From Methylocystis parvus OBBP (GTDB lineage: Bacteria; Pseudomonadota; Alphaproteobacteria; Rhizobiales; Beijerinckiaceae), in the NCBI RefSeq assembly GCF_027571405.1, contig NZ_CP092968.1:1-64000 (forward strand): a stretch of 64,000 nt of DNA, in the 5' to 3' direction. The notes under the pieces were generated by a model. That model did no database searches, was not told the origin of the DNA, and saw nothing but the letters and a program-made list of their open reading frames with translations. The translations under genes and the position numbers were made by a program. This document shows positions 1-40,055 of the stretch, one piece after another; position 1 is the first letter of the stretch, and each line of letters starts with the position of its first letter.

Positions 1-1503
1 ATGTCTGATCGTGAATCATCCAATGACGGGATTTCCGCCGAGGACCAGAAACGTTGGGAGCGCGTTCGGGAGCGGCTGCGGGCCGAGCTCGGGGACGCCG
101 TCTATAATTCCTGGTTCACGCGCCTCGAGCTCGAACGCCTTGCCAGCGAGACGGCCCATCTCACCGTGCCGACCAAATTCCTGAAAAGCTGGGTTCAGTC
201 GCATTATGCGACGCGCATAAAGGCCCGCGTTTCCGGCGAATTCAAAGGCGTCGAGCGCGTCATCATCGACGTGCGCAGCTCGGCGCGAAAAGCCAGGGCG
301 CGCGACTCCGGCTCCGAGAAGGACTCCGAGGCGACCCCCATCCTCAATGTCGCCGAGAAGACGCCGGCGCCTTTCGACGCGGGGATGGATTCCCTGAACG
401 CCGCCGCGCCGCGCCGCGCGCCGCGTACGCCGGGAATGCGGGGCGAGAGCGACTCCGTCATGGGCTCGCCGCTCGACCGCCGCCTGTCTTTCTCGACTTT
501 CCTCGTCGGTCCGTCGAACCAGCTCGCTTACGCCGCGGCCTGTCGCGTGGCGGAAGCACGTCCCGGCGAAACGCCGATGTTCAATCCGCTCTACGCGCAC
601 GCCGCGGTAGGTCTCGGCAAGACGCATCTCCTGCAAGCGCTCGCTCATGCGACCAACGACAATCGCCGACGCGCTGTCTATCTCACGGCCGAGCGATTTA
701 TGAGCGGCTTCGTGTCGTCGCTCAACAATCAGACGTCGCTCGCTTTCAAGGAGCGTCTGCGCGCGATCGACATGCTGATCATCGACGACGTGCAATTTCT
801 GCAGGGCAAGTCGATCCAGCAGGAATTCTGTCACACGCTGAACGCGCTGATCGACGCCGGCCGTCAGGTCGTCGTCGCTGCGGACCGGCCGCCGTCCGAT
901 CTCGAAACGCTCGACGAACGCGTCCTCTCGCGCTTCAAAGGCGGACTTTGCGTCGATATCGGCCCGCTCGACGAGTCTTTGCGCGTGAAGATTTTGCAGG
1001 CGCGCATCGCCGCGGCGCAGGAGACGCAGCCGGGCTTCCATGTGCCGCCAGACGTCATCAGCTATGTCGCGCGAACGATCCTGACGAATGGCCGCGACCT
1101 CGAAGGCGCCGTGAATCGCCTTCTGGCGCATGTCACGCTCAATGGCGCGCCGCTCACCGTCGAGACGGCCGAGACCGCGATCCGCGACCTCGTGCGCACG
1201 CAGGAGCCCAGGCGCGTCAAGATCGACGACATCCAGAAGCTCGTCGCCTCGCATTACAATATTTCACGCGCGGATATTCTGTCGTCGCGCCGCACGGCGA
1301 ATGTCGTGCGTCCGCGCCAGATCGCCATGTATCTGTCGAAGCAATTGACGCTGCGCTCGCTCCCGGAGATCGGCCGCCGCTTCGGCGGACGCGATCACAC
1401 GACCGTGCTGCACGCCGTGCGCAAGATCGAGGAGCTTGTCGCGAAGGACAAGGGCCTTGCGGAAGTAATCGAGTTGCTGAGGCGGATTTTGAGCGAGCAG
1501 TAA
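1..1503 (+). CDS. dnaA: Chromosomal replication initiator protein DnaA
   Basis: DnaA is the AAA+ ATPase that binds DnaA boxes and opens the origin. The 500-residue product has domain I at about residues 15-90, a variable linker to about 155, and an AAA+ domain with Walker A VGLGKTH (residues 203-209) and Walker B LIIDDVQF. The C-terminal DNA-binding domain carries the signature [15 protein letters not shown]. Length is normal for Rhizobiales. The frame opens at base 1, so promoter, ribosome binding site and any in-frame upstream start cannot be seen. The two residues before the Walker A core are Ala-Ala rather than the common Gly-Gly; from memory this occurs in related Rhizobiales, so it is not taken as a defect. 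Confidence 0.98.
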
Positions 1504-1521
1504 CGGCTTCCGCTTTACCAT

Positions 1522-1634
1522 CATTGCGAGGAGCGTAAGCGACGAAGCAAATCCAGAGCCGCAACAGCTGCTCTGGATTGCCTCGCATCTTGTCGAAGTC
1601 GGATATACCCGACGTCGAGCGAATGCTCGCAATG
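1522..1634. repeat. Palindromic repeat, copy A (about 113 bp)
   Basis: First of three copies of a composite palindrome in this window (others at 50866-50991 and 58148-58264). The outer arms are CATTGCGAG and CTCGCAATG. An internal pair of arms reads ATCCAGAG / CTCTGGAT. A near-perfect dyad around GTCGGATATACCCGAC lies towards the right end. It sits between the convergent ends of dnaA and the polyamine-binding protein gene, the normal setting for a dispersed intergenic repeat. Confidence 0.85.
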
Positions 1635-1658
1635 ACGATGTGTCGCCTGCGATCGCGC

Positions 1659-2738
1659 CTACCGTCCCGTCTTCACCATCGTCCAAAGACGGGTGATGAA
1701 TTTCTGCTCGGGCTGATTGGGCGTGGTGACGGTGAAGAGCCGATGCATCGTTCCTTCGCCGGGATAGACGGAAGGATCGTCGGCGATCGATCTGTCGATC
1801 AGCGCGCGCGACGGGCCGACGCCGTTCGCGAAGTTGGTCGCCTTGGTGTTGCGCGCCGCCACATCCGGGCGCAGCAGATAATCGATGAAGAGATAGGCCT
1901 CGGCGAGATGCGGGGCGTCGATCGGGATAGCAAGATTATCCAGCGACATCAGGGTGCCTTCGCTCGGGATCGCATAGGCGATCTCGACGTCGGAGCCGGC
2001 TTCGCGCGCACGGTTGCGCGCCTGCAGGCTGTCGCCCGCCCAGCCGATCGCGACGCAGATGTCGCCATTGGCGAGCGCGTTGATATATTCGGACGAATGG
2101 AATTTCTTGATGAAGCGCCGCAGCCCCGCGAGATGGTCGGCGGCGCGCTTGAGATCGGCTTCGCTCTTCGAGTTGGGATCGAGCTTGAGGTAATTCAGCG
2201 TAATCGCGAAAATGTCTTCGGGGCTGTCGAGAACATAGACGCCGCAATCGGCGAGCTTCTTCAGATTTTCGGGTTTGAGCGCCTGGTCCCAGCTCGTGAT
2301 CGGCCTGCCGATGCGCTCCTTGACCTTCGCGACGTTATAGGCGACGCCGGTCGTGTACCACATATAGTTGATCGCGTGCGCGCTGCCCGGATCGTAAGCG
2401 GAGAGCCGTCCGTCGATCTCGGTCCAGATATTGCCGGCGTTGGCGAGACGTTTCCGGTCGATCGGCTGCAGCACGCCCGCCTTGATCTGGCGTTGTAGGA
2501 AGGTCGCCGAGGGGACGACAATGTCGTAACCGGTCGCGCCGGCGAGCAGGCGCGACTCGAGCATCTCGTTCGAGTCGTAAGTGTCATAGACGACTTTGAC
2601 GCCCGTCTCGCGCGTGAAGTCCTCCAGAACGCCCGGGTCGACATAGTCGCTCCAATTGAAAATATTGACGACGCGCTCCGCCGCCGAGGCGGGCGCACAG
2701 GCGAGAGCGAACAGAAGGGCGACAAGAATTTTTTTCAT
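1659..2738 (-). CDS. Polyamine ABC transporter, periplasmic binding protein (PotD/PotF family)
   Basis: Predicted periplasmic receptor of a spermidine/putrescine importer. Residues 1-19 form a clear signal peptide (MKKILVALLFALACAPASA). The mature part starts with the family sequence VVNIFNWSDYVDP and contains NEMLESRLLAGATGYDIVVPS and YMWYTTGVAYN, typical of PotF-like proteins. The length of 359 residues is normal. No permease or ATPase gene is adjacent, so it is either an orphan receptor or works with transporter genes elsewhere. It is divergent from mmcB. Spermidine versus putrescine preference cannot be read from the sequence. Confidence 0.9.
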   Translation of the reverse strand: MKKILVALLFALACAPASAAERVVNIFNWSDYVDPGVLEDFTRETGVKVVYDTYDSNEMLESRLLAGATGYDIVVPSATFLQRQIKAGVLQPIDRKRLANAGNIWTEIDGRLSAYDPGSAHAINYMWYTTGVAYNVAKVKERIGRPITSWDQALKPENLKKLADCGVYVLDSPEDIFAITLNYLKLDPNSKSEADLKRAADHLAGLRRFIKKFHSSEYINALANGDICVAIGWAGDSLQARNRAREAGSDVEIAYAIPSEGTLMSLDNLAIPIDAPHLAEAYLFIDYLLRPDVAARNTKATNFANGVGPSRALIDRSIADDPSVYPGEGTMHRLFTVTTPNQPEQKFITRLWTMVKTGR

Positions 2739-31975: not shown

Positions 31976-32149
31976 TAATTCGCCAAATAGGGTCGAATGC
32001 GCGGCATAAACCCGGGCCGGCCGTCCTTGTCTCTTGCTTTGCACAAGGGGCTGCGTTACGGAACGCGCGGCCTGGAGCTTTTCCAACCTGCGAGTTCCCG
32101 AAAAGCGGCCTTCGCCCCGCCGCAAGTCGGACCGACCGGACACGACCCA

Positions 32150-32515
32150 ATGCCGATGCTGCTCGAACAATATATGCCGCTGGCGATCTTCATGGCGCTC
32201 TCGGCCATCATCGCTGGCGCGCTGCTCGTCGCGCCCTTCCTGCTGGCCTTCAAGGCGCCGGATCCGGAAAAGCTCTCCGCTTACGAGTGCGGCTTCAATC
32301 CGTTCAACGATTCGCGCATGAAATTCGACGTGCGCTTCTATCTGGTGTCGCTGCTCTTCATCGTGTTCGACCTGGAAGTTGCATTCCTCTTCCCCTGGGC
32401 GGTCGCCTTCAAGGAGGCGGGCGCCTTCGGTTTCTGGTCGATGATGCTGTTTCTCGGCGTGCTGACCGTCGGCTTTGTCTATGAGTGGCGCAAGGGCGCG
32501 CTGGAGTGGGATTGA
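32150..32515 (+). CDS. nuoA: NADH-quinone oxidoreductase subunit A
   Basis: Membrane subunit of complex I, 121 residues, three helices. The conserved loop [39 protein letters not shown] is complete, with the Cys that switches accessibility in the active/deactive transition of the mitochondrial homologue. First gene of the nuo operon; its stop overlaps the nuoB start as TGATG. The operon promoter probably lies in 31976-32149. Confidence 0.97.
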
Positions 32516-33078
32516 TGACGACGCTGATCGCTCCCGAACCCAAGGGCCTCATCGATCCGCGCACCGGCAAGCCGGTCGGCTCGGACGATCCCTTCTTCCT
32601 TCAGATCAACGAGGAGCTCGCCGACAAGGGCTTCTTCGTCACCGCAACGGACGACGTCATCAACTGGGCGCGCACCGGCTCGCTCATGTGGATGACTTTC
32701 GGCCTTGCCTGCTGCGCGGTCGAGATGATCCAGGCGGCCATGCCGCGCTACGATCTCGAGCGCTTCGGTTTCGCCCCGCGCGCGTCGCCGCGCCAGTCGG
32801 ACTGCATCATCATCGCCGGCACGCTGACCAACAAGATGGCGCCGGCGCTGCGCAAGGTCTACGACCAGATGCCGGAGCCCCGCTACGTCATCTCCATGGG
32901 CTCCTGCGCAAACGGCGGCGGCTACTACCATTATTCCTATTCGGTGGTGCGCGGCTGCGACCGCATCATTCCGGTCGACGTCTATGTGCCGGGCTGCCCG
33001 CCCTCGGCCGAGGCGCTGGTTTACGGCATGCTGCTGCTGCAAAAGAAAATCCGCCGCACGGGCACGATCGAGCGGTAA
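32515..33078 (+). CDS. nuoB: NADH-quinone oxidoreductase subunit B
   Basis: Peripheral-arm subunit of 187 residues that carries cluster N2, the last Fe-S cluster before quinone. The ligands are visible in [10 protein letters not shown] (tandem Cys), GSCANGGG and [10 protein letters not shown]. The N-terminus has a short extension typical of alphaproteobacteria. The start at 32515 is fixed by the TGATG overlap with nuoA. Confidence 0.98.
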
Positions 33079-33083
33079 GAGAA

Positions 33084-33156
33084 GCGAGTGGCGAATGGGG
33101 AGTAGCGAGTAGAATATCGACGGCGGTCTATTCGCTATTCGCTATTCGCTATTCGC
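33084..33156. repeat. Short tandem/inverted repeat between nuoB and nuoC
   Basis: The 101-bp nuoB-nuoC gap contains about four tandem copies of the heptamer ATTCGCT (33128-33156). A diverged opposite-strand set of the same kind of unit lies at 33084-33116 (GCGAGTGGCGAATG, AGTAGCGAGTAGAAT). The two halves can form an imperfect long hairpin in the transcript inside the operon. Confidence 0.8.
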
Positions 33157-33179
33157 CTTTGCGCGAGAAGGTCTGACGA

Positions 33180-33788
33180 ATGACGGCTGAACTGGAAGCT
33201 CTCGGCGCGAAGATCAGCAGCGCCTTGCCCGGCGCGATTGCGGCCGTGAAGATCGCCTATGGCGAACTCACGCTGACCGTCGCGCGCGAGCGCTGGATCG
33301 AGACCGCGACTTATCTTCACGACGACCCCGACTGTCTCTTCGTCAATTTCGTCGACGTTACGGCGGCGGACTATCCTGAGCGCGAAGAGCGTTTCGAGGT
33401 CGTCGCGCATCTCCAGTCGCCGAAGCACAATCGCCGCATCCGCATCAAGACACCGGCCGCGGAAGACACGCCGGTCGACTCGCTGGTCCCGCTCTTCCCC
33501 GGCGCGGACTGGTACGAGCGCGAGACTTACGACCTCTTCGGCGTCATCTTCTCCGGCCATCCGGACCTGCGCCGCATCATGACCGATTACGGTTTCGACG
33601 GTCATCCGCTGCGCAAGGATTTCCCGATGTCGGGCTATGTCGAGGTTCGCTACGACGACGAGCGCAAGCGCGTCGTCTATGAACCAGTCCGTCTCCAGCA
33701 GGAATACCGCAATTTCGATTTCCTCTCGCCGTGGGAGGGCGTCCAGTACAACCTTCCGGGCGATGAGAAGGCGAAAGGGCAGTCGTAA
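33180..33788 (+). CDS. nuoC: NADH-quinone oxidoreductase subunit C
   Basis: Hydrophilic connecting subunit of 202 residues (30-kDa subunit type, not fused to NuoD). Hallmarks are [58 protein letters not shown], and [26 protein letters not shown] lies about 7 bases before the ATG. It is separated from nuoD by a degraded S23-type gene. Confidence 0.98.
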
Positions 33789-33789
33789 A

Positions 33790-34229
33790 TCGGCAGTCGG
33801 CAATCGTGAGGCGGCGGGTTGGTTCAGCGGTCAAACGACGAAGGCATCAGATCGTATCGCGATCTACGCGTATGGAAGGAAGCAATGGATCTCGCGGTTG
33901 AATGCTACGGATTGACCAAAGGGTTCCCGAAGGAGGAAACCTTTGGCCTGACGTCGCAGATCAGGCGTGCAGCCGCTTCCATCGCCGCGAACGTCGCGGA
34001 AGGTTACGGGCGTGACAGCCCCGGCCAGTATGTGAACTTCCTACGCGTGGCGCAGGGCTCCCTCAAGGAGCTCGAAACCATGTGTTGCTCTCAAATAGGG
34101 TTGGCTTCGTCGCCGATGGGCGCGCGGAGGCGATACTCTCCAGATCAGAAGGCATCGGAAAAATGTTGCGTGGCCTGATCAGATCAATCCAGCGATCAAC
34201 AAGTCCGACTGCCGAAGCCCGACTGCCGA
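33790..34229. repeat. Inverted repeats flanking the S23-type pseudogene
   Basis: TCGGCAGTCGG at 33790-33800 has its reverse complement CCGACTGCCGA twice on the other side, at 34205-34215 and 34219-34229. Together they bracket the S23-type frame between nuoC and nuoD. This suggests a small inserted unit of about 440 bp, but no target duplication was identified. Confidence 0.65.
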
Positions 34230-34252
34230 AGCGGAGCGCGACCAATGAATGA
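33819..34252 (+). pseudogene. Frameshifted four-helix bundle protein (S23/IVS family)
   Basis: The first part (from a TTG at 33819) encodes SYRDLRVWKEAMDLAVECY, FGLTSQIRRAAASIAANVAEGYGR and GSLKELET, diagnostic of the S23 four-helix proteins originally found in rRNA intervening sequences. After LKELET (about 34079) the family sequence continues only in another frame, giving [31 protein letters not shown] and a stop at 34250-34252. That fits a one-base deletion. As written, the open frame ends with unrelated residues at 34178. The restored frame overlaps the nuoD start. It interrupts the nuo operon between nuoC and nuoD. Confidence 0.8.
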
Positions 34253-35465
34253 TCAAGCCGTCGCCCCCGCCAAGCCCGAAGCCCAGGGCATGCGCAACTT
34301 CAACATCAATTTCGGCCCGCAGCACCCCGCGGCTCACGGCGTTCTGCGCCTGATCCTCGAACTCGACGGCGAAGTCGTCGAGCGCGTCGATCCGCATGTC
34401 GGCTTTCTCCATCGCGGCACCGAGAAGCTGATGGAGGCGCGCACCTATCTGCAGAACGTGCCTTATTTCGACCGGCTCGACTATTGCGCGCCGATGAATC
34501 AGGAGCACGCCTTCTGTCTCGCGATCGAGCGCCTGCTTGGGATCGAAGCGCCGCGCCGCGCCCAGCTCATCCGCGTCCTTTACGCCGAGATCGGTCGTCT
34601 GCTCTCGCATCTCCTGAACGTCACCTCGCAGGCGATGGACGTTGGTGCGCTCACCCCGCCGCTGTGGGGCTATGAGGAGCGCGAGAAGCTCATGGTGTTC
34701 TATGAGCGCGCTTGTGGCGCGCGTATGCACGCCAATTATTTTCGTCCCGGCGGCGTCGGCCGCGACCTTCCGGATCAACTCGTCGAGGATATCGGCGCTT
34801 TCTGCGATCCTTTCCTCAAGGTTTGCGACGATCTCGAAGGCCTCTTCATCGAGAACCGCATCTTCAAGCAGCGCAATGTCGACATCGGCGTTATTACGCT
34901 CGAAGACGCGTGGAAATGGGGTTATTCCGGCGTGATGGTGCGCGGCTCCGGCGCGGCCTGGGATCTGCGCAAGGCGCAGCCTTATGAGTGCTACGAGGAG
35001 ATGGCGTTCGACATTCCCGTCGGAAAGAACGGCGACTGCTACGACCGCGCCGTCATCCGCATGGAGGAGATGCGCCAGTCGACCTTCATCATGAAGCAGT
35101 GCGTCGAGAAGCTGCTGTCGGAAACCGGCCGCGGGCCGGTATTGACGCAAAACCACAAGATCACGCAGCCCTCGCGCCCCGAGATGAAGCGCTCCATGGA
35201 AGCGCTCATCCAGCATTTCAAGCTCTTCACCGAGGGCGTCCACGTTCCGGCCGGTGAAATCTACGCCGCGGTCGAGGCGCCCAAGGGGGAATTCGGCGTC
35301 TATCTCGTTTCGGATGGCGGCGACAAGCCGTATCGCTGCAAGATCCGCGCGCCGGGCTTCGCGCATCTCTCGTCCATGGATTTCATGTGCAAGGGCCACA
35401 TGCTCGCCGACGTCTCGGCGATCCTTGGCTCGCTCGACATCGTCTTCGGGGAGGTCGATCGGTGA
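34245..35465 (+). CDS. nuoD: NADH-quinone oxidoreductase subunit D
   Basis: 49-kDa quinone-site subunit of 406 residues. Key segments are [40 protein letters not shown], the quinone-pocket region with [13 protein letters not shown], and the C-terminal [12 protein letters not shown] typical of the full-length protein. Reads continuously. It starts 66 bp after the S23 pseudogene's broken frame and is followed by a 561-bp insertion carrying a DUF559 gene before nuoE. Confidence 0.98.
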
Positions 35466-35475
35466 GTTTGATCCT

Positions 35476-35501
35476 TTCCCCAACCCTCCCCTTTGCAAGG
35501 G
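35476..35501. repeat. Palindrome related to the DUF559-flanking repeats
   Basis: The palindrome CCCTCCCCTTTGCAAGGGG followed by AGGG lies just after nuoD, outside the left 39-bp repeat. It belongs to the same sequence type (pyrimidine-rich arm, TTGCA-like centre, purine-rich arm) as the flanking repeats at 35528 and 35968. Confidence 0.75.
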
Positions 35502-35527
35502 GAGGGAGCCAGGCGGCTGCCGCATTT

Positions 35528-35566
35528 CTCCCTCCCCCTGAAAGGGGGAGGGTCGGGGTGGGGGTC
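35528..35566 (+). repeat. Left 39-bp terminal inverted repeat of the DUF559 unit
   Basis: A 39-bp sequence made of a G/C-rich hairpin (CTCCCTCCCCCT...AGGGGGAGGG) plus the tail TCGGGGTGGGGGTC. Its reverse complement occurs at 35968-36006 with a single mismatch (central GAA versus GCA). Confidence 0.9.
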
Positions 35567-35599
35567 AGCCTCCGTTCGCATCCGGATCGGGAGGCGAGC

Positions 35600-36022
35600 A
35601 TGACGCGCTTCGACCGAACGCGCGCCAAGACGGAGCGCGCTCGCCAATTGCGACGCGACATGACCGGCGTCGAGAAGAAGCTTTGGAGCCGCCTGACCAA
35701 TGCGCAGCTCGGCGTTTCGTTTCGCCGGCAGCATCCCATCGGACCCTATTTCGTCGACTTCTATTGCGCGACGGCGCGACTGGTTGTCGAACTCGATGGC
35801 GATCAGCATGGCTTCGATGCGGGGCTGGCGGCGGATGTGCGCCGCACCGCTTTCCTGTCGAGCAAAGGACTGCGCGTCCTTCGGTTCTGGAACAACGAGG
35901 TTGTGACCAATATTGACGGCGTCGTAGAGACGATCTGGCTCGCCGTTCAGCCGTTCCTTTCGAACTCGACCCCCACCCCGACCCTCCCCCTTGCAGGGGG
36001 AGGGAGTGAGCCAGTGGATTAA
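35600..36022 (+). CDS. DUF559 endonuclease-domain protein (Vsr-like fold) in the nuo operon
   Basis: Product of 140 residues with the DUF559 / very-short-patch-repair-like core: ERARQLRRDMTGVEKKLWSR, FVDFYCATARLVVELDGDQH (acidic catalytic-type residues 64-68) and LRVLRFWNNEV. DUF559 proteins belong to the PD-(D/E)XK superfamily; no substrate is established. The start ATG 35600 lies just inside the left 39-bp repeat, and residues 123-136 (TPTPTLPLAGGG region) are encoded by the right repeat. The gene has no link to complex I and interrupts the operon between nuoD and nuoE without changing strand. Confidence 0.88.
   Translation: MTRFDRTRAKTERARQLRRDMTGVEKKLWSRLTNAQLGVSFRRQHPIGPYFVDFYCATARLVVELDGDQHGFDAGLAADVRRTAFLSSKGLRVLRFWNNEVVTNIDGVVETIWLAVQPFLSNSTPTPTLPLAGGGSEPVD
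35968..36006 (-). repeat. Right 39-bp terminal inverted repeat of the DUF559 unit
   Basis: Inverted copy of 35528-35566 with 38 of 39 bases matching. It overlaps the 3' end of the DUF559 coding sequence, whose stop lies 14 bases beyond it. The nuoE start is 21 bases beyond the repeat. Confidence 0.9.
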
Positions 36023-36026
36023 AATA

Positions 36027-36635
36027 ATGTCCGTCCGTCGTCTCGCCGAAAAGCAGCCCGAGAGCTTCGAGTTCACCGACGCCAACAAGGCGTGGCTCGA
36101 GAAGCAGATCGCCAAATATCCCGACGGCCGTCAGGCCTCGGCGGTGGTGCCGGCCCTGTGGCAGGCGCAGAAGCAGCATAATTACTGGCTGCCGCAGGCG
36201 GCGATCGAGAAGGTCGCGGAACTGCTCGGCATGCCGAAGATCCGCGTCCTCGAGGTCGCGACCTTCTACACCATGTTCAATCTCGAGCCGGTCGGCAAAT
36301 ATTACATCCAGCTCTGCGGCACGACGCCCTGCATGTTGAGCGGTTCGGACGACCTCATCAAGGTGCTCGAGCGCAAGGTCGGGCCTCAGCGCGAGGTGAC
36401 GGCCGACGGCCTGTTCTCCTGGCTCGAAGTCGAGTGCCTCGGCGCCTGCTGCAACGCGCCCATGGTGCAGATCAACGATGATTATTACGAGGACCTCACG
36501 GCCGAGAATTTCGAGAAGCTTCTCGACGATCTCGCCGCAGGCCGTCCTGTGAAGACGGGCTCGCAGAAGGGTCGCGTCTCGTCCGAGCCCGAGGGAGCGC
36601 TCACCAGCCTCGCCTCGCTCTACGGTCAAAAGTAA
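36027..36635 (+). CDS. nuoE: NADH-quinone oxidoreductase subunit E
   Basis: 24-kDa subunit of 202 residues carrying [2Fe-2S] cluster N1a. The ligands are in QLCGTTPCML and ECLGACCNAP (Cys-x4-Cys and Cys-x3-Cys). Upstream, PDGRQASAVVPALWQAQ and VATFYTMFNLEPVG are typical. The start at 36027 (MSVRRLAEKQ) lies immediately after the DUF559 unit. The Shine-Dalgarno is weak, so the insertion may have altered nuoE translation. Confidence 0.97.
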   Translation: MSVRRLAEKQPESFEFTDANKAWLEKQIAKYPDGRQASAVVPALWQAQKQHNYWLPQAAIEKVAELLGMPKIRVLEVATFYTMFNLEPVGKYYIQLCGTTPCMLSGSDDLIKVLERKVGPQREVTADGLFSWLEVECLGACCNAPMVQINDDYYEDLTAENFEKLLDDLAAGRPVKTGSQKGRVSSEPEGALTSLASLYGQK

Positions 36636-36653
36636 GCGGAGGGAAAGAAGACG

Positions 36654-37958
<1,305 letters not shown>

Positions 37959-37994
37959 GATGAACCTGCGCGTCGAGACTTCGGAGATAGCGAA

Positions 37995-40055
37995 GTGACA
38001 AAAATTCTCGTCGATGGCGTCGAAGTTGACGTGCCGGCCGAATTCACGCTGCTTCAGGCATGCGAGGAGGCGGGCGCCGAAGTGCCGCGCTTTTGCTACC
38101 ATGAGCGCCTGTCGATCGCCGGCAATTGCCGTATGTGTCTCGTCGAGGTGAAAGGCGGCCCGCCGAAGCCGACCGCCTCCTGCGCCATGTCCGTCAGGGA
38201 TCTGCGTCCGGGCCCGAACGGCGCGCCGCCGGAAGTCCTGACCAAGTCGCCAATGGTGAAGAGGGCGCGCGAGGGCGTGCTCGAGTTCCAGCTCATCAAC
38301 CACCCGCTCGACTGCCCGATCTGCGATCAGGGCGGCGAGTGCGACCTGCAGGATCAGGCGCTCGCTTACGGCGCCGGCCGCTCGCGTTTTTCCGAGGACA
38401 AGCACGCGGTCGAGAATAAATATATCGGGCCGCTGGTGAAGACCGAGATGACGCGCTGCATCCACTGCACGCGCTGCGTCCGTTTCACCGCCGAAATCGC
38501 CGGCACGAGCGACATGGGCGCTACCGGCCGCGGCGAGGATATGGAGATCACCACCTATCTCCAGACGGCCATGACGTCCGAGTTGCAGGGGTGCGTCTCG
38601 GATCTGTGCCCGGTCGGCGCGCTGCTGCCCAAGCCGCAGAATTTCCGGGCGCGTCCGTGGGAATATCAAAAGACCGAGACGATCGACGTCATGGACGCGC
38701 TCGGCTCCAATATCCGCGTCGATTCGCGCGGCCGCGAGGTCATCCGCATTCTCCCGCGCGTCAATGACGCGGTGAATGAAGAGTGGATTTCCGACAAGAC
38801 GCGCCAGGTCGTCGACGGCCTCAAGACGCAGCGTCTCGACCGCCCCTATGTGCGCGAGAACGGCCGCCTGCGTCCGGCCTCGTGGAAAGAGGCCTTCGAC
38901 CTCATCGCCGCCAAACGGAAGGCGACCGCTCCGGCGCGCGCCGGCGCCATTGTCGGCGACCTTGCCGCGGCCGAAGAAATCTTCGCGCTGAAGCTTCTGC
39001 TGCAGCATATCGGCTCGCCCAATCTCGATTGCCGTCAGGACGGCGCGAGGCTCGATCAAAAATTCGGCCGCGCCTCCTATCTCTTCAACGCGACGGTCGC
39101 GGGCGTCGAGCAGGCGGATTCGCTGCTCATCATCGGCTCCAATCCGCGCAAGGAGTCGCCGGTCCTCAACGCCCGCATTCGCAAGCGCTGGCTCAAGGGC
39201 GGCTTCAAGGTCTCGCTAATCGGCGAAAAGGCCGATTTGACCTATGACTACGACTATCTCGGCGCGGGCCCGGATTCGCTCCTGCATTTCATCCAGACGG
39301 GAAAGCCGGCCGGCAAGCTGCTGGTGATCGTCGGGCAGGGCGCGCTGTCGCGTCCGGACGGCGACGCCGTTCTGGCGCTCGCAGCCCAGGCGGCGCAGAA
39401 GCTCGGCGGCGTCTCCGACGGCTGGAACGGCTTTTCGATGCTGCATACGGCGGCGTCCCGCGTGGGCGCGCTGGATATCGGCTTCACGCCGGCGCAAGGC
39501 GGACTCGACGCGCAGCGGATGGCGAAGGCCGGCGCCTTGGACCTGCTTTTCCTGCTTGGCGCGGATGAAATCGCGATCGAGCCGGGCGCCTTCGTCGTCT
39601 ATATCGGCACGCATGGCGATCGCGGGGCGCATCGCGCCGACGTGATCCTGCCGGGCGCGGCCTATACCGAGAAATCGGGCCTTTACGTCAATACGGAAGG
39701 CCGCGTGCAGCTCGCGTCGCGCGTCGTCTTTCCGCCGGGCGAGGCTCGCGAAGATTGGGCGATCCTGCGCGCGCTGTCGGCCGTTATCGGGCAGGCGCTG
39801 CCTTTCGACTCGCTCACCGAATTGCGCAAGAAGCTCGTCGAGGCGCATCCGCATTTCGCCCGTATCGATCAGATCGAAGCGGGGGAGGCGGCGGACATCG
39901 CCAAGCTCGCCGGCCATTCTGCGGTCGCGATGAAGGACCCCTTCGTCTCCGCGATCGCTGATTTCTACCTCACCAATCCGATCGCGCGCGCCTCGGCGGT
40001 CATGGCGGAATGCTCGGCCCTCGCGCAGGGCAAGCTGGCCCAGGCGGCGGAATAG
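37995..40055 (+). CDS. nuoG: NADH-quinone oxidoreductase subunit G
   Basis: 75-kDa Fe-S subunit of 686 residues with a GTG start at 37995. The N-terminal [2Fe-2S] ligands are in [21 protein letters not shown]. The [4Fe-4S] ligands are in [19 protein letters not shown], then [10 protein letters not shown] and [13 protein letters not shown] molybdopterin-oxidoreductase-like domain without cofactor makes up the rest. Typical alphaproteobacterial/mitochondrial size. Confidence 0.97.

Follow-up and report, generated by a model that had tools for sequence, protein, structure and literature searches.

A DUF559 nuclease gene between predicted triplex repeats is inserted in the nuo operon of Methylocystis parvus and is probably a transposase-free mobile element

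Introduction

How does a small nuclease gene bounded by inverted repeats come to lie inside the nuo operon, and does the nuclease have a part in moving it? The window analysed here, a stretch of 64,000 nucleotides from Methylocystis parvus OBBP, raises this question with a gene of the DUF559 family (PF04480) between nuoD and nuoE. An earlier note on this DNA had read the arrangement as a minimal mobile unit that carries no transposase, similar to REP-associated single-gene systems with another enzyme family.

DUF559 proteins have so far been met in other settings. YcjD of Escherichia coli has been assigned to the PD-(D/E)XK superfamily, with a profile that picks up Vsr (PMC1189080). Caulobacter cells without the methyltransferase ScmA mount an SOS response for which the DUF559 protein VsrA is required (PMC12907096). 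The literature on intrastrand triplex repeats of E. coli, in turn, goes back to about 2000 (Hoyne et al., cited in PMC4666352). The triplex motif has 23 copies in E. coli K-12, is found in over 260 genomes and was linked with genome instability; the available text of that paper reports neither a transposase or integrase near the motifs nor a stable triplex in vivo (PMC4666352). The words 'endonuclease' and 'nuclease' are absent from its main text. Among the top-listed results of searches in the open-access literature without bioRxiv preprints, we found no link of DUF559 or ycjD with triplex repeats.

Results

Structure of the insert

The two main arms of the locus (repeats 2 and 3 in Table 1) are 39 nt long, complementary at 38/39 positions (97%) and spaced by 401 nt. 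Each is a hairpin followed by a G-rich tail. The right arm is translated throughout: the final codons of the gene pass through it (TPTPTLPLAGGG...), the protein ends in TPTPTLPLAGGGSEPVD and the stop codon lies just past the repeat. The observation of the earlier note is confirmed. A third hairpin (35484-35506, tail outward) pairs with the left arm and completes an inverted pair (REPIN) on the left side, so that the element extends beyond the limits first given. This REPIN (35477-35566, with a match to the hairpin motif at 35486) is homologous to other copies in the genome, and the right arm corresponds to the first half of such a pair, the second half being absent. With 300-bp flanks the locus has an inverted-repeat score of 36, the threshold being 14.

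Table 1. Coordinates of the insert, its parts and its neighbours in the window
Feature	Position	Strand	Remarks
nuoD	34245..35465	+	left neighbour of the insert, intact
Whole insert between nuoD and nuoE	35462..36024	+	563 bp in place of 1 bp, net 562 bp
Repeat 1	35478..35506	-	C-rich tail outward and hairpin CCCTCCCC-TTTGCAA-GGGGAGGG; first half of the left REPIN
Repeat 2 (left inverted repeat)	35528..35566	+	hairpin CCCTCCCCCT-GAA-AGGGGGAGGG, loop TCG, putative third strand GGGTGGGGGT towards the gene
DUF559 (Vsr-like, PD-(D/E)XK) nuclease gene	35600..36022	+	140 aa; PF04480
Repeat 3 (right inverted repeat)	35968..36006	-	putative third strand towards the gene, hairpin outward
Right outer remnant of the insert	36007..36024	.	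18 bp, then the restored TAATG of nuoE
nuoE	36027..36635	+	right neighbour of the insert, intact

Among the open reading frames and Pfam matches of the insert there is no transposase gene. The surroundings (32000-40000) consist of nuo genes and one IVP gene, a 23S_rRNA_IVP gene (33819-34178; PF05635, four-helix bundle) between nuoC and nuoD. In relatives, IVP genes have inverted arrays of short tandem repeats (GGCAGTC, GCGAATA or TTTAGTG types) on either side, with 4/8 loci reaching the threshold. Such genes are a second kind of one-gene unit bounded by repeats, here in the same nuo operon.

Empty sites in congeners

The limits of the insert were set by comparison with congeners and their positions read on the window sequence. 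The insert is absent from all 23 congeners readable at the nuoD-nuoE junction. In 22 of them the nuoD stop overlaps the nuoE start (GATCGCTAATGTCC), and none of these bare junctions carries a repeat; the exception (L073, genome G007) has an unrelated 80-bp spacer. Nineteen junctions were read by a two-sided pattern and those of L068-L070 from the nuoD stop and the start of the nuoE match; congener G012, with an unreadable nuoE, was set aside. No target-site duplication is evident between the window and the congeners. The insert provides nuoD with a new TGA stop, and TAATG is restored ahead of nuoE; neither frame is broken, as had been supposed. The segment is a discrete insertion, and in the congeners read the nuo site shows no ancestral copy of the gene, which answers an objection that the earlier note had raised against itself. 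It is close to certain on these data that the insert is a unit and that DUF559 genes are associated with such repeats.

A second DUF559 gene of the window genome (L004), downstream of greA, is absent from the 21 congeners with a readable greA end, where the DUF559 motif was sought in the next 900 bp (2/23 congeners' loci were unread, and G011 gave no match). The gap downstream of greA (L315-L338) holds other repeat families in several congeners and the DUF559 gene only in the window genome; it looks as if it were a repeated landing site. The family as a whole is patchy, with 0 to 7 matches per genome in one genus, fragments counted. Broken or partial matches occur in congeners (G015:C19, G018:C1:383663-383973 and G004:C44), and we take them as a sign of gain and decay.

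Several further places were considered as empty sites and rejected. The presence or absence of ycjD in E. coli does not qualify because other lineages have eefRABCD there (PMC12817139). Deinococcus strain QL22 is without the DUF559 gene between paaD and paaZ; its intergenic region is too diverged for placing the ends. At the free REPIN site L125, 22/24 congeners align with the two flanks but not with the repeats between them, and in the one pair read closely the gap is about 225 bp for an 89-bp repeat pair. At the free REPIN site L127, 8 congeners match the whole stretch at 70-76% and 12 match it in two pieces, so it does not serve as a precise empty site either.

The nuclease

The window protein matches PF04480 with E=4e-37 (126.9 bits, with a curated cut-off of 20.6), and Pfam gives only DUF559 and a weak MTES_1575 for it. 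The conserved E/W/D/E-x-D/H/D/R positions of the family are present, E25, D53, E64, D66, H70 and R95 among them. Over 127 aligned loci, conservation is 1.00 at E25, W29, D53, E64, D66, G67 and R95 and 0.99 at H70; the active site is conserved. The AlphaFold model (pLDDT 80) has its best matches among PD-(D/E)XK nucleases. The closest solved structure is 3hrl (NGO0050; Foldseek E 8.5e-7, 40% identity, profile E 1.3e-37), followed by the homing endonuclease I-Bth0305I (3r3p; Foldseek E 3.6e-5, profile E 6e-4), and E. coli Vsr is a weak structural match (Foldseek E 0.04). Profile matches to cholera toxin B (E 0.015 to 0.1) were taken as chance. One search returned 2445 homologues at E<=0.001, and many DUF559 homologues are named very-short-patch-repair endonuclease by their source.

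Bracketing of DUF559 genes

The window genome has four DUF559 genes; every one is bracketed, and the repeat family differs from gene to gene. The earlier note had proposed a search for the same kind of repeats around other DUF559 genes, and they are indeed widespread: an inverted repeat with a score of at least 14 was found at 43/45 loci in relatives, the window genome included, and at 54/82 loci across Alphaproteobacteria, which makes 97/127. These loci are not all independent, since near relatives share some sites. At the same score the controls gave 0/26 for PIN, 0/28 for nuoE and 1/127 with a shuffled right flank. When right flanks were swapped between class loci, 40/400 reached the threshold, which we read as a repeat superfamily common to unrelated loci. 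Truncated loci were set aside (7/52 of the relatives', 8/90 of the class, 4/30 PIN, 2/30 nuoE and 1/9 IVP), and about 50 further DUF559 matches, weaker, partial or lower-listed, lie outside the fetched loci. The 23S_rRNA_IVP gene was rejected as a negative control, as it bears its own inverted short-repeat arrays at 4/8 loci with a score of at least 14; PIN and nuoE therefore serve as controls.

Wider groups were sampled by the best 80 of 563 named matches, of which 76 remained after removal of 4 near contig ends. Here 56/76 loci are bracketed (Alpha- 20/25, Beta- 8/10, Gammaproteobacteria 9/14, others 19/27), and with the wider windows used for them the controls are still 0/26 (PIN) and 0/28 (nuoE). 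Among these best 80 of 563, bracketed genes occur in Xanthomonas (3/4 loci), Lysobacter, Herbaspirillum and Sphingopyxis, and in some Chloroflexi and Gastranaerophilales; in the same set the flank test found no repeats in Pseudomonas indica, P. weihenstephanensis, Bosea and others. The threshold was missed at 28/82 class loci, 2/45 relatives' loci and 20/76 of the wider loci from the best 80 of 563. Repeats are degenerate or missing at E. coli ycjD, at one N. gonorrhoeae and at two cyanobacterial DUF559 genes.

In the 97 bracketed alphaproteobacterial loci the polarity of the repeats is toward the gene in 58, outward in 7 and unassigned in 32. The reading frame continues past the right arm in 42 of them; in 44 it stops ahead of the arm and in 11 within it. 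A simple pattern finds the repeat-encoded type of C-terminal peptide in 77/120 homologous proteins among the matches listed.

Some single loci deserve mention. Two DUF559 genes on Deinococcus plasmids (L342 and L347) have long inverted repeats matching at 51/53 and 55/56 positions; the C-rich tail lies outside the hairpin, a polarity opposite to the usual one, and one of these genes is located between paaD and paaZ. On pSymB of S. meliloti (CP090106.1), a DUF559 gene has an entire REPIN on one side and, on the other, a REPIN truncated next to an IS, the arms matching at 110/114 positions. This REPIN (L346) recurs on pSymB and on other plasmids, with 162 records matching part of a query that also holds IS sequence. 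It may be, as we presume, a RIME element. A phage origin of the unit was rejected, since only 4/50,697 phage records match.

BLASTN between loci gave 91 gene-spanning alignments in which both loci have repeats. In 12/91 pairs both limits of the similarity fall no more than 20 nt from the outer edges of the arms. Examples are L002-L049 (1395-1908, arms 1394..1901), L010-L015 (1415-1880, arms 1415..1881) and L047-L050 (1413-1875, arms 1413..1874). Four arm-to-arm pairs lie in single genomes: L120-L153 (1311-1971, arms 1311..1971), L175-L192 (1411-1860, arms 1411..1854), L102-L145 (1409-1907, arms 1405..1910) and L114-L148. In another 60/91 pairs the alignment passes an arm at one end or both; 48 of these extend over 1.5 kb, as would copies that share a site. 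The remaining 19/91 fall short of the arms. In some pairs, then, the shared unit is delimited by the repeats.

The repeats as a putative triplex motif

The G-rich tail is a mirror image of the stem's purine arm (CCCTCCCCCT-GAA-AGGGGGAGGG-TCG-GGGTGGGGGT), and 10/10 purine-motif triplets are predicted from the sequence at both repeats 2 and 3. The tail is thus a candidate third strand, and the repeats match the published intrastrand triplex motif (TM/PIT), with a hairpin, a mirror purine third strand, at least 6-7 triplets and short loops. Across the 97 bracketed loci, 133/194 ends are predicted to be triplex-competent, both ends in 55 loci; the controls gave 0/52, 0/56 and 0/194.

The third strand goes with its own stem. 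With a free loop, the own downstream context gives perfect triplets in 99/142 stems, compared to 134/1420 when contexts were swapped from loci with another stem pattern. The perfect pairs are GGGAGAGG with GGGTGAGG (25 times), GGAAGAGG with GGATGAGG (19 times), GGGAGGGG with GGGTGGGG (16 times), GGGGAGGG with GGGGTGGG (15 times) and GGAGAGGG with GGTGAGGG (4 times). Covariation with the loop fixed at 3 nt (A/T at stem A in 126/271, about 84/263 when permuted) shows a weak contrast because many families have long second loops, and we relied on the free-loop swap instead.

In E. coli K-12, ycjD (1351407-1351760) is a DUF559 gene, and TM_ECO no. 9 (1351204-1351239) lies about 170 bp downstream of its 3' end. 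Its C-terminal SPSP is encoded by an apparently degenerate repeat, with an inverted-repeat score of 8. In the same fabI-sapF gap (L312, 2041-2827) an apparent decayed second DUF559 3' end was seen by eye between TM_ECO no. 9 and ycjD, so the place looks like an element graveyard.

Repeat numbers and repeat families

The window hairpin recurs at many places in the genome, often as inverted pairs. A repeat pattern has 55 matches in this genome, its reversed control 0, and repeats are mostly found without a DUF559 gene. To compare genomes, the motif GGGGAGN(2-30)GGGTGRGGG was counted in 289 Alphaproteobacteria, those with a match at E<=1e-15 being scored as DUF559-positive. Its density is 5.28 per Mb in the 68 positive and 0.51 in the 221 negative genomes (p=1e-23), with 0.21 and 0.14 per Mb for the reversed control, which differs between the groups as well (p=5e-4). 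In genomes of at least 3 Mb the medians are 10 with DUF559 and 0.5 without it, and contrasts within families went up in 19 cases and down in 7, with 1 tie (p=0.014).

After subtraction of four repeats per gene the density is 4.07 versus 0.51 per Mb, about eight times (p=2e-4; the DUF559-negative list behind this subtraction sums to 287, the expected sum being 286). The medians are then 0 in both groups, and at least 5 repeats remain in 25/68 positive versus 18/221 negative genomes. Within the genus (25 genomes) the number of repeats follows the gene with a rho of 0.84: the six DUF559-negative genomes, four of them less than 90% complete, have 0, 0, 0, 0, 1 and 6 matches and the others a median of 18; after subtraction the medians are 7 and 0 (p=0.016). 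The repeats are about ten times denser where DUF559 is present, with exceptions both ways. Repeat-rich genomes without DUF559 exist (G082 with 46, G218 with 35, G029 with 22 and G025 with 21 matches), and 24/68 positive genomes have at most 2 matches.

The earlier note had stated that repeats equally frequent away from DUF559 genes would speak against its reading. Half of this concern is justified, since repeats do occur away from the genes, as expected of a dispersed non-autonomous repeat; the other half is not, given the tenfold density in genomes with the gene.

The REPIN family of the window has nine pairs in its own genome, counting the one at the DUF559 locus, and a single weak match across 24 congeners. 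Since no more than 24 candidate places were scored in each genome, further copies may have escaped the search. In the aligned loci, the DUF559 proteins of congeners stay at or below 58% identity to that of the window. Over 82 loci, repeat similarity grows with protein identity. Pairs from the same genome with protein identity below 50% have a median repeat similarity of 0.31 (n=38), versus 0.56 (n=42) for non-syntenic pairs from different genomes with identity of at least 58% (p=8e-9). Judged by these similarities, the repeat family tracks the relatedness of the protein and not the genome.

Discussion

We consider it probable that a mobile element without a transposase has settled between nuoD and nuoE, in which the DUF559 nuclease mobilises its gene together with the triplex repeats; we infer its catalysis. 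The nuclease would recognise the folded hairpin-triplex in single-stranded DNA, during replication or repair, and cut at its own repeats. The cut would start the copying or insertion of the gene cassette and also, in trans, that of the gene-less REPINs. Copying, target choice and joining may use host replication or repair. The part of DUF559 for triplex repeats would be similar to that of RAYT for classical REPs. The bracketing of many DUF559 genes and the empty junctions support the minimal mobile unit of the earlier note. To that picture we add the REPIN structure, the predicted triplex motif, the link to an E. coli repeat and the kinship with a homing endonuclease.

Several other explanations were weighed. 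The gene could be a passenger of repeats that act as hotspots of recombination or breakage, with host recombination moving the genes trapped between them and the nuclease employed otherwise. The reported tie of the triplex motif to instability (PMC4666352) suits this, as do the many repeats without the gene and the bracketing of 23S_rRNA_IVP, although that is by unrelated short tandem arrays. However, PIN, a small accessory family of the same genomes, is bracketed at 0/26 loci, the repeat family follows the protein, and the nuo site is free of repeats in the 22 congeners with a bare junction. We therefore hold a passenger to be unlikely.

It is improbable, in our view, that DUF559 is a host structure-specific nuclease which removes or repairs triplex repeats and lies beside them for regulation, without spreading them. 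Such a role would explain the co-occurrence with the repeats, the protein has kin within the Vsr/PD-(D/E)XK fold, and the dependence of the Caulobacter SOS response on VsrA without the methyltransferase (PMC12907096) is in line with it. But the cassette is patchy and inserted, and an enzyme of containment gives no reason to expect genomes that have it to be richer in repeats.

It is very improbable that the gene is accessory cargo coding for a lone mismatch or restriction nuclease of the Vsr type, beside repeats that are only terminators or neutral intergenic DNA. The names given to many homologues by their source point that way, and VsrA was proposed to act with a solitary methyltransferase (PMC12907096). 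Against this, in 12 pairs the DNA in common takes in the two repeats and goes no further, the third strand is conserved in the repeats and needless for a terminator, and Vsr itself matches the structure weakly. Finally, a chance juxtaposition of abundant GC-rich palindromes is ruled out by the flank, reversed-pattern and triplex controls, even if the hairpin is common in the window genome and 40/400 swapped flanks reach the threshold.

The mobile element thus stands as our preferred reading, and the data suggest that the DUF559 family is the missing partner that spreads triplex repeats. We see about even chances for the wider proposal that DUF559 genes form a new, phylum-spanning mobile class on triplex ends, which is the source of the triplex/PIT repeats and left ycjD as a remnant in E. 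coli K-12. If true, a widespread and unassigned class of triplex repeats gains an agent and a family of unknown function gains a role. To our knowledge it would be the first nuclease to serve mobility by working on ends of triplex DNA, and the REP lifestyle would have a second type of enzyme behind it. If DUF559 is the enzyme of triplex repeats, a testable model is available in E. coli.

The repeat itself is best compared with TM_ECO (earlier PIT; Holder et al. 2015, PMC4666352), which has the hairpin CCCTCTCCC..GGGAGAGGG with a 3-nt loop and the third strand GGGTGAGGG, whereas the window family has the stem GGGGGAGGG and the putative third strand GGGTGGGGG. Inverted pairs are common to TM_ECO and the repeats flanking DUF559 genes. 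The CGTC-tagged REPs of Alphaproteobacteria are likewise reported to lack an attached transposase gene, but are described with a CGTC tag, A-T at the stem base and a CCA tail (PMC3733652); the repeats here differ, and an identity with CGTC REPs was rejected on that description.

Among nucleases, I-Bth0305I (3r3p) has a related domain and is a mobility enzyme. The 3r3p entry is a mobile intron protein, while the gene here is free-standing with terminal repeats; we saw no intron or intein, and insertion into the bare nuoD-nuoE junction is seen. NGO0050 of Neisseria gonorrhoeae (3hrl), of related fold, is described only as endonuclease-like; a N. gonorrhoeae DUF559 gene found by tblastn, which may be NGO0050 itself, has no good inverted repeat. 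VsrA of Caulobacter crescentus (CCNA_02930) shares the DUF559 domain and was proposed as a mismatch repair enzyme, the available text of that paper not discussing repeats (PMC12907096). YcjD of E. coli K-12 is DUF559 like the window protein, with degenerate flanking repeats.

The unit is not a classical insertion sequence, having no transposase and no evident target-site duplication. The closest system is RAYT (TnpA-REP, Y1 HUH, 'REPtron'; PMC3733652), where one enzyme gene is likewise bracketed by hairpin repeats, repeat-specific enzyme genes occur in species with several repeat families, and gene-less repeats are dispersed in the genome, here often as inverted pairs. In Alphaproteobacteria, a genome is reported to have no tnpA-Y1 gene or only a small number (PMC6006769). 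Pfam and structure matches gave no HUH domain for the window protein, and by eye no GTAG foot is present in the window repeats; because HUH transposase and GTAG tag are absent, the unit is not a RAYT member. The analogy with REP systems drawn in the earlier note nevertheless holds for the layout, a gene bracketed by hairpins, with a PD-(D/E)XK nuclease in place of the HUH/Y1 enzyme and a predicted triplex third strand in place of the GTAG tag.
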